64,000 nucleotides of DNA from Amycolatopsis camponoti. GTDB taxonomy: Bacteria > Actinomycetota > Actinomycetes > Mycobacteriales > Pseudonocardiaceae. The notes beneath the pieces were generated by a model. The model was not told the origin of the DNA. It worked only from the letters and a program-made list of their open reading frames with translations, and searched no databases. The stretch covers positions 3,824,501 through 3,888,500 of the forward strand of contig NZ_CABVGP010000001.1 in NCBI RefSeq assembly GCF_902497555.1, written 5' to 3'. The position numbers were made by a program, and so were the translations under genes. How positions within the stretch are numbered: position 1 is the first letter of the stretch; every line of letters starts with the position of its first letter. Shown here piece by piece: positions 3,496 through 19,441 of the stretch.

Positions 3496-3583
3496 ATGCC
3501 GTTTCGTGCACCGGACACAATTTCGCGCCAAGATATATCGGCTACCCGATCGGTGTGTTGACCGGACCCCAGGACAGGCTGAG

Positions 3584-5686
3584 GTGACTGCTCCTTATCC
3601 CCGCGGTGACGACCCGCGGAAGAAGCCGTCCGCCGAACGTGCGGCGAGACGGCTCGCCACCCTGGCGCGCAAGTGGGGCTACCTGGTCAGCACCACGGCC
3701 TACCTGCCGCACACGCCCGAGGAGATCGAGCGCGAGCTGGCGGTCCTGGTCGGCCGGCTGTTCGAAGCGGTCGCGAGCGACCCGCCGGAGCTCGGGGAAG
3801 CCGCGGCCGCCGGCGCGCGGCTCGTCGAGCTGCGGTGCGTCGGCTCGGACAGCCTGCGCCGCAGCCTGGAGGTGCTCGGCAAGGCCCTGCTGCGCGAGCC
3901 GGAGCTGCGCCGGGTCGACGGGCTGGCGGAGCGGGTCGTGCTGGTGCTCGGCGCGCTCAGCTCGGGCTACGGCGAGACGTTGCGCGAAGACATCCAGAAG
4001 CGCCAGGAAGGCCTGAGCCGGGCCCTGCTGAAGGTCGAGCAGGAGACCCGGCAGAAGCAGGTCATCACGCGCGCGCAGTTCGAAGAGGTGTTCGCCGGCT
4101 CGGCCAGCGGCATCGCGCTCACCGAGCTGGACGGGCGCGTGCTGCGCGCCAACGCGGCGCTCGCCAAGACGCTCCAGCGGACCCCGGCCGAAATCGCCGC
4201 GATGACCCTCTTCGACCTGGTTCACCCGGACGAAGTCGAGCAGCTGCGGGAGGCCTACGCGGAGCTGGTGGCCGGGCGGCTGCACCGGTTGCGCGTCGGC
4301 CGCCGGCTGGTCGGCCGGGACGGCGAGCCGATGTGGGCCACCTTCGCCGCGTCGGTGATCCGCGACGCGGTCGGGGCGCCCCGGCAGCTGATCACCCTCG
4401 TCGACGACGACACCGAGGTGTCGCTGCTGCAGCGGCGCCTGTCCCACCAGGCCCTGCACGACGTGCTGACCGCGTTGCCGAACCGGCAGTTCTTCAGCAC
4501 CCGCCTGGAAAACCTGCTTCGTGAGGCCGACGCGTCGCGGGGCGTCACGCTCTTCCACCTCGACCTCGACGGCTTCTCGCAGATCACCGGCGGGCTCGGC
4601 CAGGAGCTGGGCGACAAGGTGCTGCGCGGGGTCGCCGGAAAGCTGAAGGCGGTGTTCGAGGACGAGAAGGCCCTCGTGGCGCGGCTCGGCGGCGACGAGT
4701 TCGGGGTGCTCGTCCAGAACACCGAGGGCACGCCGGGCGTCCTGACGCTCGTCCGCCGGATCACCCACGAGCTGGCGGAGCCGGACTACGTCGACGGCGA
4801 CCACGGCGTCGCGGTGTCGGCCAGCATCGGCGTCGTGCATCGGCCGCCGCGCGACATCACCCCGGCCGAGCTGCTGCGCGCGTCGGACCTGACGCTGCGC
4901 CGCGTACAGCGGACCGGGGCCCAGTGGGGCCTGTTCGACCGCGAGCTGGACCGCCGCGACCGCCACGACTTCGGGCTCGCCGCGGCGATGGCGGGCGCCT
5001 GGGAGAACGGCGAGATCGAGGTCGGCTACCGGCCGCTGGTCGCCGCGGTGGACGGCTCGGTGCGGGGCGTCGAGGCGCGGCTGCGCTGGAACCACCCGGC
5101 CGAAGGCGTGCTGCCGCACGAGTCGTGCGTGCGGCTGGCGGGGGAGACGGGGCTGGCACTGCCGCTGGGCACGTGGCTCCTGCGCACGGCGGTCGAGCGG
5201 GTCGCGGCGGCCGGCGTCGGCGTGCCGCTGACGGTCGAGCTGACGGCGCACCAGGCCGCCGACCCGGAGCTGGTCGGCGAGATCCGCGCCGTGCTCGAGT
5301 CCACCGGCCTGGCGCCGGAGCGACTGAGACCCGGGTTCCCGTCGGCTACGCTGCCGGCGGACTCCGGCGACGCCGCCGACAACCTGAAGGTGCTGGCGGA
5401 AATCGGCGTGGCGGCGGAGATCCACGGCTTCGGCGACGTGACCTGCCTGACCGAGTTCCCGGCGCGCACGGTCCGCATGGCGCCCCGGCTCGTGGAGCGC
5501 CGGACGCACCCGCTGGTGGACCGGACGCTGACGGCACTGGTCGAGGCGGCCCACCTGGCCGGCGCGGAGGTCGCGGTGACCGGCATCGACCACGCGGACC
5601 AGCGCGACTGGTGGCGGGACCGGGGCGCGGACCGGCTGTCGGGACCGCTGTTCACGGAGGTTCCGGGCGGCTTGCCGGGCTGCTGA
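3584..5686 (+). CDS. PAS-GGDEF protein with degenerate EAL domain
   Basis: About 700 residues from GTG 3584; upstream in-frame starts add a non-conserved leader. Order: helical N-terminal domain (1-150), PAS (about 165-285), GGDEF (about 292-455) and an EAL-like domain (460-690). The diguanylate cyclase signature GGDEF is intact (369-373), but no RxxD inhibitory site precedes it. The EAL domain has lost its catalytic set: EAL reads EAR, the Asn of the NLS-type strand is Glu, the DDFG loop reads HGFG, the metal-binding KID Lys is missing and AEGVE is replaced by VTGID. It should make but not degrade c-di-GMP. No membrane segment is present. Confidence 0.88.
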   Translation: MTAPYPRGDDPRKKPSAERAARRLATLARKWGYLVSTTAYLPHTPEEIERELAVLVGRLFEAVASDPPELGEAAAAGARLVELRCVGSDSLRRSLEVLGKALLREPELRRVDGLAERVVLVLGALSSGYGETLREDIQKRQEGLSRALLKVEQETRQKQVITRAQFEEVFAGSASGIALTELDGRVLRANAALAKTLQRTPAEIAAMTLFDLVHPDEVEQLREAYAELVAGRLHRLRVGRRLVGRDGEPMWATFAASVIRDAVGAPRQLITLVDDDTEVSLLQRRLSHQALHDVLTALPNRQFFSTRLENLLREADASRGVTLFHLDLDGFSQITGGLGQELGDKVLRGVAGKLKAVFEDEKALVARLGGDEFGVLVQNTEGTPGVLTLVRRITHELAEPDYVDGDHGVAVSASIGVVHRPPRDITPAELLRASDLTLRRVQRTGAQWGLFDRELDRRDRHDFGLAAAMAGAWENGEIEVGYRPLVAAVDGSVRGVEARLRWNHPAEGVLPHESCVRLAGETGLALPLGTWLLRTAVERVAAAGVGVPLTVELTAHQAADPELVGEIRAVLESTGLAPERLRPGFPSATLPADSGDAADNLKVLAEIGVAAEIHGFGDVTCLTEFPARTVRMAPRLVERRTHPLVDRTLTALVEAAHLAGAEVAVTGIDHADQRDWWRDRGADRLSGPLFTEVPGGLPGC

Positions 5687-9119: not shown

Positions 9120-9123
9120 CCGG

Positions 9124-10629
9124 CTAGGACTGGTCGACGGCCTTGACCGTCGCGCAGAACCCTTCGATGGCGGCGAGGTCCTGCTCCGGGATCTCGTCGC
9201 CGGAGAAGTGCATCAGCTCGTTGCGGATGTTCTTCGCCTTCGTGAGGAGATCGAGGAAGGTCTCGTGGTCGAGCGGCCAGCCGAGCAGCTCGAAGGTGGC
9301 CCGGTCGGCGAAGATCCGGACGTAGTTCCCGAACGTCGGGTTGCCGTTCGCCCACTTCGGGACCGCTTTGTCGAGCAGGTCCTCGGGCACGCTGCGCTTG
9401 GTGTGCCGCCGCAGCCGCAGCTCGGCCTCTTCCAGGAGCGAGAACGGCCGGGCGAGGGTGCCGAACTGGCGGGCGAGGTCGTGGGCCGTCACGACCCCGA
9501 TGAGCTTCCGGCGGTCTTCTCCCCGGACGAAGACGTACCCGCGGCGGTAGATCTCGTCGATCTGGCCGAACAGCTCGTCGTCGAAGTCGATGACCCGGAC
9601 CTGGGTGGTCGCGTCCCGCAGCGTCGGCTCGGGGTTCGTCAGCCGGGCCCGGCCGATGGACTCCCAGCTGACCGCGCCGACGTGGAACCCGTCCGCGTCG
9701 ACGACCGCCAGCTGGGAGTAGTTCTTGGCCAGCATGAGCGTCACCGCGGTGGCGAGCGGCTTCCCGGCCGTGACCGCTTCGATGGACGGCTCCTCCGGCA
9801 GGACCGCGCGCACCACCCACTTGGCCGGCAGGTCGTCCAGCGCTTCGAGCCCGGGTGGATCCGTTTCGGAGTCCGCCGCGCCCGGCTCGTCGGCGACCGG
9901 GACCAGCTCGACGACCGCGTCCATCCGCGCCGTGGTGAACGCCGGCTTGGTCGTGACCCCGTGCTCGGCCAGCTCGGATTGCACGGTCACCAGGGAGGTC
10001 GCGGTCCGCCGCCGGTAGCCCCACAGGGACAGCAGCGCCCGGACGGTGAGCTTCACGGGTGCCGCGCCGGTCTCGACGGCTTCCCACAGGTCGGCCTGGG
10101 TGGCGTCGGGGTCGAGGTTCGCCGAAGCGTGCTGCCAGCCCGGGTCCGGCCGTCCGGCCGCGATTTCCCCGATCCGCCGGGCCGCCTCGTGCCGGCTCAG
10201 CCGGCACACGGTGAGCAGTGACCCGAGACTGCCGCGCAGGTCGGGGCCGAACTCGCCGGGCTCGATGTCCGTCCGGAGCCACCGGACGGGCCGGGCGTGC
10301 CGGCACTCCGGGGCCGAGCCGGGGCGGTAGTGGTACTGCCCGGTGACCTCGCCGATGGCGAACCGCCGCACGTTCTTGAGCGGCATGACGACGAGGTCGC
10401 CCTCGTTCATCTCCCGGTAGAAGCGCCACAGCTGGCCGGCCCAGTTGCCGATCACGTAGGTGGACCGTTGCGGGTAGCACTCGCGGAGCCCGGCCTTGAG
10501 CGCTTCCCGGGTGTCGAACCGGCCGAGGGCGGGAACGCCGCCCCAGCCGACGATCGCGAGACCTTCGGCGAGGGACTCCTGGTCGCGCTCGCCTTGCCTG
10601 CCCGCGCGGACTTGCCAAGCTGACTTCAT
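9124..10629 (-). CDS. Mrr-N-like / CBS-pair / HEPN fusion protein
   Basis: 501 residues from ATG 10629, preceded by GGGAGAA. Residues 1-130 resemble the N-terminal PUA-like domain of Mrr-type restriction proteins (ERDQESLAEG, GDLVVMPLK, FAIGEVTGQYHY). Residues 195-231 contain a compact helix pair (LWGYRRRTATSLVTVQSEL...TKPAF) like those seen beside nucleic-acid-binding domains. About 272-390 form two CBS motifs. The C-terminal 100 residues are a HEPN-like helical domain with the RNase signature R469-N470-x3-H474. No Mrr nuclease core is present. It could be a nucleotide-sensing RNase or a defence effector; this is inference. It stands alone, divergent from the FHA gene. Confidence 0.75.
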   Translation of the reverse strand: MKSAWQVRAGRQGERDQESLAEGLAIVGWGGVPALGRFDTREALKAGLRECYPQRSTYVIGNWAGQLWRFYREMNEGDLVVMPLKNVRRFAIGEVTGQYHYRPGSAPECRHARPVRWLRTDIEPGEFGPDLRGSLGSLLTVCRLSRHEAARRIGEIAAGRPDPGWQHASANLDPDATQADLWEAVETGAAPVKLTVRALLSLWGYRRRTATSLVTVQSELAEHGVTTKPAFTTARMDAVVELVPVADEPGAADSETDPPGLEALDDLPAKWVVRAVLPEEPSIEAVTAGKPLATAVTLMLAKNYSQLAVVDADGFHVGAVSWESIGRARLTNPEPTLRDATTQVRVIDFDDELFGQIDEIYRRGYVFVRGEDRRKLIGVVTAHDLARQFGTLARPFSLLEEAELRLRRHTKRSVPEDLLDKAVPKWANGNPTFGNYVRIFADRATFELLGWPLDHETFLDLLTKAKNIRNELMHFSGDEIPEQDLAAIEGFCATVKAVDQS

Positions 10630-10784
10630 CGTTCTCCCGGTTCCTGGGCGCCGAACTGACTTACGCACCCCAGTCGGCCGCGAGGCGATGATCGTCGCCC
10701 GGCAACCGCCCGGTTCACCCGTTCGCCACGCATCTTCACGCCGCCGTGGTGCTCTGTCCGGAATCGGGACGTGGGGGAGGGGCG

Positions 10785-11339
10785 ATGGAACACCCAGTGA
10801 CCATCGAGACGCTCGGCGGCGCGGTCGCGCGGCTGGACGTGCGGCGGGGCTCATGGCTTGTCGGTCGCGCCCCCGAGGCGGACCTGAAGCTGTACTCCGA
10901 CCGCGTCAGCCCGCGGCACGCCTGGCTCCGGCGGGACGCCCGCGGCACCTGGGTGTCCGACGCCGGCTCCCGCGCCGGCACGCTCGTCAACGGAGAGGCC
11001 CTGGCGCCGAGGCAAGCCAGGCTCCTGCACGACGGCGACCGGGTGTCCTTCGGCCCCATCACCGCCGTTTACACCGACGTCGGCGCGACCGGTGACGATC
11101 GGCCGGTGTTCGCCGTGGTTCCCGCCCGGCGGGCGGGCACGGTCGCGCTCGTGCTCGGCCCGGTCCTGTTCGTCGCCGGGTTCGGGCTCGGGGCCGCCCG
11201 GCTGCTCCGGCACTTCGGGGCCGGGCCGGAGTTCGGGGTCGCCCTGCTGGTCGTGGGCCTGATGGTTTCGGTGCTCGGTGTGGTCCTGGCCCGCAGGAGG
11301 AAGGCGCGGCCGTCGGCCGTCCACGGCAGCAGGACGTGA
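10785..11339 (+). CDS. FHA-domain membrane protein
   Basis: 184 residues from ATG 10785 with GGGGGAGG upstream. An N-terminal forkhead-associated domain (about 8-95) shows the phosphothreonine-binding features GRAPEADL, SPRHAWL and NGEAL. Two hydrophobic segments (about 119-140 and 150-172) and an Arg-rich tail follow, so the FHA domain probably faces the cytoplasm on a short membrane anchor. FHA proteins of actinomycetes usually read Ser/Thr kinase signalling, but no kinase gene is nearby. Confidence 0.83.
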   Translation: MEHPVTIETLGGAVARLDVRRGSWLVGRAPEADLKLYSDRVSPRHAWLRRDARGTWVSDAGSRAGTLVNGEALAPRQARLLHDGDRVSFGPITAVYTDVGATGDDRPVFAVVPARRAGTVALVLGPVLFVAGFGLGAARLLRHFGAGPEFGVALLVVGLMVSVLGVVLARRRKARPSAVHGSRT

Positions 11340-16241: not shown

Positions 16242-16294
16242 GTCGTCCTGTCTTGCTATGGTCGACGTCCGGCCGGCGAAGGGAGGGCGGGGCC

Positions 16295-19200
16295 TTGGAC
16301 GCGGGCGGGCTGACCCTGCAGGACCTGATCAAGCGGCGGCAGGCCGACGGCTTCGTCGGGCGGCGCCACGAGATCGGCCGGTTCGAAGAAGCCCTCCGGC
16401 TCCCGCTGGAGGACCAGCGCCGCCGGTTCCTGTTCAGCGTGCACGGCGATGCCGGCGTCGGGAAGTCGTTCCTGATCAACCAGTTCCAGCGGATCGCGCA
16501 GGAGTCGGGATGCGCCGTCGCGTACGTCGACGAGTCGGTCTTCGACATCCCGTCGGCGCTGTCGGGCATCGTCCGGTCGTTCGCCCGGCAGGGTGATCCG
16601 TGCAAGGAGTTTGCCAAGAAGTCCGAGCTGTACCACGAAAAGCGGCACGAGCTCGACGCGGACCCGGCCACTCCGGAAGGGTTGTCCTCGGTGCTGACCC
16701 GGTCGGCCGTGCGGATCAGCCTGCGCGCCGCGGAAGACATCCCGGTCGTCGGGTCGTTCGCCAAGGAGCTCGACCGCGACGCCATCTCGAACCAGGTCGA
16801 GAAGTTCCGTGCTTTCCTCAGTGTGAAGCTGCGCAACCAGCATGATGTGCGCCTGTTGATGTCGCCGGTCGAAGAGCTGACCCCGATCTTCGTGGCCGAA
16901 CTCCGGCAGGTGGCGGCGAAACGACCGGTGGTGCTGTTCTTCGACACCTTCGAACGCACCGGGGTGTTTCTCGAGCGTTGGCTGCTGGACTTGCTCGACG
17001 GCCGTTACGGCAGCCTCCCGCCGAACCTGGTGCTGGTGCTCGCGGGCCAGCACCCACTGGACGTCCACGCGTGGGGCGACTACCTGGGCGTCCGCGCCGA
17101 CTGCCCGCTCCAGCTGTTCACCGAGGAGGAGGCCCGCGAGTTCCTGGCGGCCCGGGGCATCACGGCGGACGAGGTGGTCGAGGTCGTTCTGGCGCTGTCC
17201 GGACGGTTGCCGGTGCTGCTGGCGCTGCTGGCGGAGTCCCGCCCGGACAGCGCCGCGAGCGTGGCCGATCCGGGGGACAACGCGGTCGAGCGCTTCCTGA
17301 AGTGGGAGAAGGACGAGAAGCGGAAACAAGCGGCGTTGCGGGGCGCGCTGCCCAGACAGCTGGACCGCGACGTGTTCGCGCTGGCCGCCGACGCGGCCAC
17401 GCCGGACGAGGATTTCGCGTGGCTGCGCCGCCTGCCGTTCGTGGCCGAGCGCGCGAGCGGCTACCGGTACCACGACGTGGTCCGCGACACGATGATCCGC
17501 GTGGTGCGGCGCCGGTCGTCCGTCGAGTGGCGTGAGCGCCACGGCGTCCTGGCGGAGTACTACCGGGCCAGGCGGGAGCAACTCGGCCTCGACGACCGGT
17601 CCGGCTGGCAGGACGAGGGTTGGCAGGCGCTGGCGGTGGAGGAGCATTACCACCGCATCTGCGCCACGGCGGCGACGGCGGACGCGTTGGCCGCGCTCGT
17701 CAGGACGATCGCGGTGCGAGCCGACCAGGTCGGGCGGTGGGTCGCCATGGTGGCCCAGGCCGGGGTGGACTCCGGCGCGGAACAGGTGGCCGCCCTGGGT
17801 TCCCGACTGAGTGCGGCAGAGGACTCGCTCGCTCTGCTGAACTGCCTCACCGCTGAGACCACCCTGTCGGTCAAGGCTCGGCACAGCGCCTACCTGCAGG
17901 TCGCCCACCACCATCTTCGACGTCGGAAGCCCGACTTCGCCGATGCCGTGACGGCGTTCTCCAAGGCGCTCGAGCACGTGCCTGAAGACGGCGTCGCCCT
18001 GACGAGCCGGGGCATCCTCTACCAGGTGCTGGGAAAGCTCGAGGCGTCGCTCGCGGACCTCGACCGTGCGGTCGAGCTGGATCCGGCGGCCGGCTGGCCG
18101 ATCGGTGCCCGCGGACAGACTTTGCTCTCGCTGAAAAGACACGAAGAGGCCGTGGCCGACCTCAGCCGGTCGCTGGACCTCATGCCGGACAAGGCGGAGG
18201 TTCATGGCGCCCGAGGCGAGGCGCTCTACGAGATGGCTCGCTACCCGGAAGCCCTCCTCGATTTCACCCGGGTCCTGGAGCTGGGGTCGAACGACAACTT
18301 TGCTCTCTCTTGGTGTGGCCGCGTTCACCTCCAGCTGAAGTCCTACGAGGCGGCGCTGGACGCCTTCAACCGGGTGCTGGAGCTGCAGCCGGAAGCGACC
18401 TGGGCCCTGACCGACCGCGGCGAAACGAATCGTCGGATGAAGCGGTACGAGGACGCGCTGGCGGACTTCACGCGCTCGGTGGAGATCGAGGCGAAATATC
18501 CCGCGGTGTTCGCGGGGCGGGGGCACACCTACGCGGACATGCATCGCTGGGAGGAGGCCTTGGCGGACTACGCCCGGGCGCTAGAGATCGCCCCGGGAAC
18601 GAGCTGGATCCTTCGTGACCGCGCGGAAACCTACCATCGGGCCGGGCGGCTCGACGACGCGCTCGCCGACTACGACCGGCTGATCGCAATAGCCCCGGAC
18701 TATTCCTGGGCGGTCCGGCAGCGGGCTTTCGTGTTGTGTGACCTCGACCGCTCGGAGGACGCGCTGGCGGACCTCACGCGAATAATCGAGACGGACCCGG
18801 CTGCGGCACTGTGGTGGGTGGACCGGGGCAATGTCCTGCACATGTCAGGGCGGCACGAGGAAGCGTTGGCCGATTTCACTCGGGCCGCCGAAATCGACCC
18901 GACGTTCGCTCACGCCTTCTGCGGCCGGGGCGAGAGCCGGAAGTCTTTGAACCAGTACGACGAGGCGTTGGCCGACTTCACGCGGGCGATAGCCATTGCC
19001 CCGGCCTTGACCCTGGCCCTCAACCGACGAGGGCAGATTCACCGCAGATGCGGCCGACTGGTCGAAGCACAGGCCGATCTCGAGCGGTTGGTGCAGCTCG
19101 GCGCCGGGGCCTGGGACCACTACCAACTGGGCCTTCTCGCACACGCCCAAGGACGACCGGACGCGGCGAAGGAGCTTTTCGCAGCCGCCGTGCTCGCCGA

Positions 19201-19441
19201 AGCTGCCGAGATCGCGGCCGGCGAGACCACGGGCAACATGCTGCTCAACTTCGTGGTCTACCACCTCGCGCTCGGCGACGTGACGGAGGCGAGATCCCGG
19301 CTCGGGGCCGCATTGGCGAAGGCGCCTGACGCCGGACGCTTCCGCGACGCGCTCGAAGACCTTGAAGACCTCGGTTCCGTCATGGCGGTGCCCGAGCTTG
19401 CGGAGTTCGAGGCCGCCCTGCGGGCGAAACTGCACGAATAG
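16295..19441 (+). CDS. STAND-type ATPase with 12 TPR repeats
   Basis: About 1048 residues from TTG 16295, chosen because GGGAGG lies 8 bases upstream; an in-frame TTG at 16253 lacks this. FVGRRHEI (20-27) opens an AAA16/STAND-like module with Walker A GDAGVGKS (51-58), Walker B VVLFFDTFE (212-220) and a sensor-1-like strand NLVLVLAGQ (244-252). A helical middle region leads to 12 near-perfect 34-residue TPRs (about 548-955), several of the form YEDALADFTRAIEIAP. No N-terminal effector domain is present, unlike Avs defence proteins. Role unknown: possible ligand-triggered oligomerising sensor. Confidence 0.83.
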   Translation: MDAGGLTLQDLIKRRQADGFVGRRHEIGRFEEALRLPLEDQRRRFLFSVHGDAGVGKSFLINQFQRIAQESGCAVAYVDESVFDIPSALSGIVRSFARQGDPCKEFAKKSELYHEKRHELDADPATPEGLSSVLTRSAVRISLRAAEDIPVVGSFAKELDRDAISNQVEKFRAFLSVKLRNQHDVRLLMSPVEELTPIFVAELRQVAAKRPVVLFFDTFERTGVFLERWLLDLLDGRYGSLPPNLVLVLAGQHPLDVHAWGDYLGVRADCPLQLFTEEEAREFLAARGITADEVVEVVLALSGRLPVLLALLAESRPDSAASVADPGDNAVERFLKWEKDEKRKQAALRGALPRQLDRDVFALAADAATPDEDFAWLRRLPFVAERASGYRYHDVVRDTMIRVVRRRSSVEWRERHGVLAEYYRARREQLGLDDRSGWQDEGWQALAVEEHYHRICATAATADALAALVRTIAVRADQVGRWVAMVAQAGVDSGAEQVAALGSRLSAAEDSLALLNCLTAETTLSVKARHSAYLQVAHHHLRRRKPDFADAVTAFSKALEHVPEDGVALTSRGILYQVLGKLEASLADLDRAVELDPAAGWPIGARGQTLLSLKRHEEAVADLSRSLDLMPDKAEVHGARGEALYEMARYPEALLDFTRVLELGSNDNFALSWCGRVHLQLKSYEAALDAFNRVLELQPEATWALTDRGETNRRMKRYEDALADFTRSVEIEAKYPAVFAGRGHTYADMHRWEEALADYARALEIAPGTSWILRDRAETYHRAGRLDDALADYDRLIAIAPDYSWAVRQRAFVLCDLDRSEDALADLTRIIETDPAAALWWVDRGNVLHMSGRHEEALADFTRAAEIDPTFAHAFCGRGESRKSLNQYDEALADFTRAIAIAPALTLALNRRGQIHRRCGRLVEAQADLERLVQLGAGAWDHYQLGLLAHAQGRPDAAKELFAAAVLAEAAEIAAGETTGNMLLNFVVYHLALGDVTEARSRLGAALAKAPDAGRFRDALEDLEDLGSVMAVPELAEFEAALRAKLHE

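Follow-up and report, generated by a model that had tools for sequence, protein, structure and literature searches.

The gene at positions 9124 to 10629 of the window, the 64,000-nucleotide stretch of Amycolatopsis camponoti DNA analyzed here, probably encodes a single-gene antiviral sensor-effector, a variant of the antiphage protein DS-11 with a candidate modified-base reader fused in front. DS-11 is a CBS-HEPN protein published in 2026 in the DefensePredictor paper (PMC13092281). In the scheme that we favor, and hold as a whole with somewhat better than even confidence, an N-terminal YTH/EVE domain would bind a modified base of the invading nucleic acid, which is most likely DNA, and a CBS pair would bind an adenine-type nucleotide via Y304 and set the dimer arrangement. 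Either cue, nucleic acid or nucleotide, or the two together, would then lead two HEPN domains to form a composite RNase site (R469, H474), which would cut RNA and halt the cell or the phage. We infer the reader ligand, dimerization, the order of events, the RNase target, and defense by the fusion protein itself; that phage defense depends on the CBS tyrosine and on the catalytic residues of HEPN comes from the published DS-11 work.

Domain organization of the fusion protein

The earlier note, made from the letters of the window, had described this gene, and we confirmed that observation: the gene is real and the anatomy first given was nearly right. Its features, in window coordinates, are as follows.

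9120..10710, no strand assigned: insert of 1591 bp, one gene plus an 81 bp leader, from comparison with empty sites
10630..10710, minus strand: gene leader within the insert; GGGAG precedes the ATG
9124..10629, minus strand: whole gene for the reader-CBS-HEPN protein, 501 aa, stop codon included
10135..10629, minus strand: predicted YTH/EVE-fold domain, residues 1-165 (PF28530 by precomputed Pfam; N-terminal half of the PADLOC PDC-S02 models)
9895..10062, minus strand: small beta-alpha-alpha-beta module with W203 and R207-R208, residues 190-245 (NF053863 match begins at 197; secondary structure of the model)
9826..9891, minus strand: predicted disordered linker, residues 247-268 (pLDDT <50)
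9451..9819, minus strand: CBS pair (Bateman module), residues 271-393 (PF00571)
9718..9720, minus strand: Y304 codon, the DS-11 Y157 position, a predicted adenine contact (Y/F in 104 of 106 relatives)
9136..9450, minus strand: helical C-terminal domain, HEPN-like, residues 394-498 (DS-11 homology; weak HEPN_Swt1 matches in relatives)
9208..9225, minus strand: R469-N470-x3-H474, HEPN-type catalytic motif R-x4-H (each of R469, N470, and H474 in 106 of 106 relatives)

An alternative, longer ATG start lies at 10854; homologues start at the shorter ATG, which is preceded by GGGAG. The gene is under purifying selection, with dN/dS of 0.32 and 0.29 against two relatives, and evolves faster than a neighbouring gene (0.045 and 0.096). 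At E ≤0.001, 203 database proteins match, and the closest among the matches listed, from Amycolatopsis sp. NPDC005961, is 99% identical.

The AlphaFold model of the full protein had a mean pLDDT of 89 and a pTM of 0.52, so the individual domains are well modeled and their mutual arrangement is not. Conservation was read from 106 near-full-length relatives, hand-chosen from database match lists with clearly short proteins excluded. A tandem CBS region had been placed at residues 272-390, which agrees with the PF00571 pair at 271-393, and a structural search matched this pair to CBS pairs with bound AMP, SAM, ATP, and c-di-AMP. The earlier note had also picked out the R469-N470-x3-H474 motif and made its RNase idea depend on conservation of the R/H pair, which all 106 relatives retain. 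Q306, W322, D384, and E403 are likewise invariant in this set, and R208 of the small module is kept in 106 of 106 relatives and in 58 of 59 proteins of a second set. Mean pairwise identity across the fusions was 51% for the N-domain, 46% for the CBS pair, and 44% for the HEPN domain; in the linker region (residues 246-269) it was 21%. The small module (WGxxRRT) has no Pfam assignment, was found in the DS-11-type proteins examined, and is possibly nucleic-acid binding.

The C-terminal domain is helical in the model and carries the R-x4-6-H motif of the HEPN superfamily as R469-x4-H474, which, with the homology to DS-11, suggests a HEPN-like domain and predicted RNase. HEPN_Swt1 matched weakly in 13 of 41 pieces (best E 0.017), the window's own piece not among them, and in 6 of 59 proteins (best E 0.0037); DCX, an unrelated family, scored better on two of the same pieces (best E 4.5e-4). 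A PDB profile search with this domain returned no HEPN chain and one chance row (E 1.1). The full-length PDB fold search was filled with CBS pairs and so tests neither the N-domain nor the HEPN domain. In a viral structure library, two rows reached E ≤0.001: one Myoviridae protein of 336 aa and one CBS protein from Megaviridae. The former, BFVD A0A8S5NVT7 (Myoviridae sp. ctEBR14), matched the model over 269 columns (E 2e-11) and is possibly a phage-borne CBS-HEPN protein.

Relation to DS-11

Residues 197-491 matched NCBIfam NF053863 (DS11_antiphage) with 206.8 bits (E 3.8e-61). The curated cut-off of this equivalog is 260 bits, and we therefore regard the protein as a DS-11 variant and not a filed member. 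Judged by homology, everything except the reader is the DS-11 module: the two share the small N-terminal module, a CBS pair with the YSQL tyrosine, a C-terminal R-N-x3-H, and a one-gene layout, whereas the fusion has a predicted YTH/EVE-fold reader of about 165 residues in front. Six stand-alone relatives scored 270-405 bits with NF053863 and four other fusions 197-252 bits, and these 10 proteins suggested that the cut-off divides stand-alone from fused forms. We rejected this idea because 15 of 30 genomes carrying related fusions have a match above the cut-off, up to 309.5 bits.

According to the accessible text of the DefensePredictor paper, DS-11 lost phage defense when carrying Y157A or HEPN catalytic mutations, and an undiscovered adenine derivative bound by CBS was proposed to control the HEPN nuclease (PMC13092281). 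Because of these mutant losses and the NF053863 match, the CBS-gated and possibly antiviral RNase of the earlier note is supported, by homology to the DS-11 lineage (NF053863, E 4e-61).

A stand-alone E. coli protein (L043:11971-13068) scored 404.9 bits with NF053863 and is about 28% identical to the fusion. It has a tyrosine at exactly position 157, in YSQL, corresponding to Y304-S-Q-L. Its residue numbering fits DS-11 Y157, and it may or may not be the tested clone. The gene is present at ≥99% identity in 127 of 5426 complete E. coli genomes, in 126 over at least 80% of its length, and the eight rows inspected annotate it as CBS domain-containing protein.

The N-terminal domain is a candidate modified-base reader

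By predicted structure, the N-domain belongs to the YTH/EVE branch of the PUA superfamily. Its resemblance to YTH is modest, with TM-scores of 0.29-0.59 over the YTH, EVE, and THYN1 rows and 3 of 402 rows at E ≤0.001. A PDB profile search with this domain returned no YTH or EVE chain and five chance-like rows (best E 0.17, ribosomal S8). The start of the protein had been described as Mrr-N/PUA-like: the PUA-superfamily part of that description holds in the model, but Pfam Mrr_N (PF14338) was rejected, with no profile match listed at E ≤10.

The same domain matched PADLOC PDC-S02 at E 1e-49, and among the best 120 of the 203 database matches the relatives go by names such as 'CBS domain-containing protein' or 'restriction system protein'. 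Both the PDC-S02 match and the latter name would fit a type IV restriction enzyme of the Mrr/PDC-S02 kind that cuts modified DNA. However, the match is limited to profile positions 2-173 of 346, and neither Mrr_cat nor another DNase domain is listed in Pfam and PADLOC profile searches of the protein, in line with the earlier statement that the Mrr nuclease core is missing. With no nuclease core listed, we rejected a DNA-cutting identity, which we regard as very improbable. The protein has the same N-terminal domain as PDC-S02 and the Mrr-type proteins (PF28530 plus Mrr_cat), but CBS-HEPN stands in place of the Mrr nuclease.

A 175-residue reader query found 110 proteins, most of which are CBS-HEPN fusions by precomputed Pfam; nine carry Mrr_cat (e.g., P0198, P0204, P0208, and P0215) and three a McrB-type AAA_5 domain (P0213, P0214, and P0216). 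On the Klebsiella plasmid pKPN-332 (L045:7029-10489), the match over residues 2-124 sits within a McrB-like AAA ATPase, between two parts of the AAA match, and the adjoining gene is of the McrBC family. Plasmid records with a match numbered 96, of which 62 were from Klebsiella, and 16 of 20 plasmid rows inspected were N-domain-only matches annotated as AAA ATPase or restriction endonuclease. Two Nonomuraea proteins, P0188 and P0189, have the reader domain near the C terminus and a weak RiboL-PSP HEPN match (E 9e-4 and 6e-4) that falls below the Pfam cut-off; they are possibly another pairing of this reader with an RNase. An IMG/VR viral contig encodes the reader domain as a short protein (L042:5426-6052, a 208-aa ORF).

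The best fold matches of the N-domain are to YTH domains, of which many were solved as readers of m6A in RNA, and CoCoNuTs, which have YTH-like and HEPN domains, are predicted in the accessible text of their description to target RNA (PMC11090510). Such matches would fit a protein that binds modified RNA (e.g., m6A mRNA) and cleaves the bound RNA with its HEPN domain, while CBS tunes activity by energy state. We consider RNA targeting of this kind unlikely: the reader also occurs in fusions with Mrr_cat DNases and with McrB-type AAA proteins (one of the latter beside a McrBC-family gene), families that act on DNA, and RAMA, the other domain fused to this effector, has been suggested as a DNA reader (PMC11037411, accessible text). 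A modified base, most likely in DNA, would remain our preferred ligand for the reader.

The reader fold is held in common with McrBC-type type IV restriction systems that have YTH/EVE specificity domains and with the EVE-HNH enzyme VcaM4I (PMC7897488), and the reader's Pfam family also occurs in McrB-like AAA proteins. The YTH-McrB of T. gammatolerans was reported to bind m6A DNA (PMC7641849). The pocket of VcaM4I for 5mC and 5hmC includes P24, W82, and Y130 (PMC7897488); in the fusion, the conserved N-domain residues W29, W63, Q66, W68, and W117 are candidates for such a flipped-base pocket. Unlike McrBC-type systems and VcaM4I, the fusion has neither an NTPase motor nor a DNase, and its effector is a predicted RNase. 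CoCoNuTs also join YTH-like domains and HEPN nucleases within one system class, but they are multi-gene and GTPase-based, and 'CBS domain' has 0 occurrences in the accessible text of PMC11090510. In the literature that could be searched, we found no description of reader-fused CBS-HEPN forms and no paper with 'EVE domain' and 'CBS domain' together. CBS-HEPN defense is already published; the reader-fused forms appear new, though databases hold many such proteins.

Two kinds of candidate reader fused to the CBS-HEPN module

Some match to the protein was found in 31 of 80 Amycolatopsis genomes, in a search that scored at most 19 candidates per genome, so absences are not proofs. We translated 22 Amycolatopsis loci matching mainly the C-terminal part. 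Pfam identified RAMA (PF18755) in eleven scanned loci of the 22, at E 3e-19 or better in the six read individually, and L050 was without RAMA by Pfam scan; by eye, nine of the remaining ten were judged RAMA-like and L069 not. RAMA has been suggested as an adenine-methylation reader, and in the accessible text of the same paper its preference for methylated DNA was not confirmed (PMC11037411). The RAMA-CBS-HEPN proteins of Amycolatopsis (L051 and others) have the same effector module behind a candidate reader, but the YTH/EVE reader is unrelated to RAMA and the clades are separate. RAMA was also found by Pfam at L107, in another genome of the phylum. The protein there (L107:1483-3762, minus strand, 760 aa) joins RAMA, CBS, and an R-N-x3-H domain to about 290 extra N-terminal residues without a Pfam match, a part that is RNase H-like by eye only.

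In a tree of the CBS-HEPN module with 59 rows, one side of a branch with 100/99 support holds 24 YTH fusions and five proteins labeled as alone. Three of the five (P0126, P0138, and P0140) have their start points within the reader domain and therefore resemble truncated fusions; P0154, which starts inside the small module, and P0132, which starts just before it, may be truncated fusions as well. On the opposite side of the tree, the 12 RAMA fusions group in a single clade (100/100) that lies among 18 stand-alone forms. If the labels are taken at face value, the YTH group requires five changes, and those past the first come from the five rows labeled alone. P0206, P0171, and P0165 have long branches and uncertain placement, and the program warns of long branches meeting. 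The simplest reading of these sequences is two separate fusions of the CBS-HEPN effector to readers.

Stand-alone DS-11 defends without a reader domain, according to the accessible text of PMC13092281, which means that activation need not start at the reader. The sole trigger could be an adenine derivative produced in the course of infection, with the N-domain serving as a tether or stability module, and the retention of the CBS pocket tyrosine as Y or F in nearly all relatives is consistent with this. However, no part of the fusions is better conserved than the N-domain, and the tree places the fusions to two unrelated candidate readers in separate groups; we find a purely nucleotide-driven effector rather unlikely. 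A strict form of our preferred scheme, in which a swappable reader (YTH/EVE or RAMA) would see a modified base in invading DNA and activate the HEPN RNase, with an adenine-nucleotide-sensing CBS dimer as a second key, would put type IV restriction recognition and an abortive RNA-cleaving output on one polypeptide. We put this strict form forward tentatively, at slightly less than even. The alternatives share elements with the main scheme, and the confidences given here therefore do not add up to one.

DS-11 was published with its activating ligand unknown (PMC13092281, accessible text), and natural reader fusions suggest the kind of cue to which the family may respond. The fusion hints at an alarm that responds to marked nucleic acid by making the cell cut RNA. 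If so, type IV-like modified-base recognition could drive an RNase and would not be tied to DNA cutting, and the nucleotide-sensing domain would be a possible safety lock.

Insertion site and distribution

The site was empty in 19 of 30 related loci examined. Full-length orthologues, at 80% or more, of the neighboring Fe-S gene were present in 48 of 80 Amycolatopsis genomes, and the intact fusion in 2 of the 80. Two more genomes carry remnants with stops: in one (G048; L049/L100), a decayed fusion with in-frame stops lies at the same site beside the Fe-S gene, and in the other (G080), the remnant is the N-part only, with no Fe-S gene in the stretch examined. Among the best 30 Fe-S loci, the FHA gene lies ≤250 bp from the Fe-S stop in 19, the fusion is present in 2 and its decayed form in 1 (L100), and the other 8 have neither FHA gene nor fusion in the stretch examined. 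By eye, the window insert (9120-10710) contained no mobile element and no clear target duplication. Insertion and repeated loss both fit the patchy presence and cannot be told apart.

The window neighbors scanned are ordinary metabolic, transport, and signaling genes, encoding an Fe-S protein, an FHA protein, a solute-binding protein, a family 3 glycoside hydrolase, a nitroreductase, and a PAS-GGDEF-EAL protein. The last (3506-5686, plus strand) is an ordinary cyclic-di-GMP enzyme. Elsewhere in the window, positions 16253-19441 (plus strand) encode a 1062-aa protein that resembles a regulator and combines AAA_16 with numerous TPR repeats.

CBS pairs often serve as energy sensors, and a gene among such neighbors could encode a housekeeping stress RNase, with CBS sensing AMP/ATP and HEPN trimming RNA in starvation, and with no defense role. 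HEPN-CBS fusions, noted in 2013, were indeed earlier suggested to regulate RNA stability (PMC3710099, accessible text). However, the rarity of the intact gene in Amycolatopsis, its decay at the same site in a third genome, the clean empty sites, and the published defense by DS-11 argue against such a role. Of 396 genomes sampled from the phylum, 3 had a DS-11 match, one being the genome on which the sample centered (at most five candidates per genome scored in the rows inspected), and this scarcity points the same way. We regard the housekeeping function as improbable.

The neighborhood was shared by L001 only among 45 loci compared, several on short contigs; L020 had one 27% transporter match to it. 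Among 50,697 phage records there was one 91-residue match, and of 25 pattern matches in viral contigs a single one encodes a relative, of the N-domain only; the collections searched gave no sign of phage carriage of the fusion. One of 72,556 plasmid records held a near-full-length relative (Streptomyces, 34% identity).

Genes near other copies of the fusion

A genome scan with one peptide pattern gave 41 loci, which are not a census. Neighbor genes, called with a custom G+C-based script, were taken from 30 of these (up to two per side); the excluded loci were L001, with the same neighborhood, and others that were short, partial, or of other architecture. The 119 neighbor genes matched 100 PADLOC families at 1e-10, versus 27 for 115 control genes from 18 stretches of such genomes; the families are redundant, so 100 versus 27 is not a count of genes, and the controls also match defense models (e.g., DpdF at 1e-291). 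The search of defense islands proposed in the earlier note found more PADLOC families near copies than in controls, a result that is suggestive only: the neighbors of other copies hint at defense islands and support a defense role modestly. When ten of the 119 neighbors, chosen mostly by length, were scanned singly, seven gave matches at 1e-10, with one of these matches weak and partial, and three gave none. Examples of neighbors are a type I restriction subunit near the L024 copy, a IIG-like gene at L034, and a methyltransferase-like gene and a UvrD-like helicase gene at L011.
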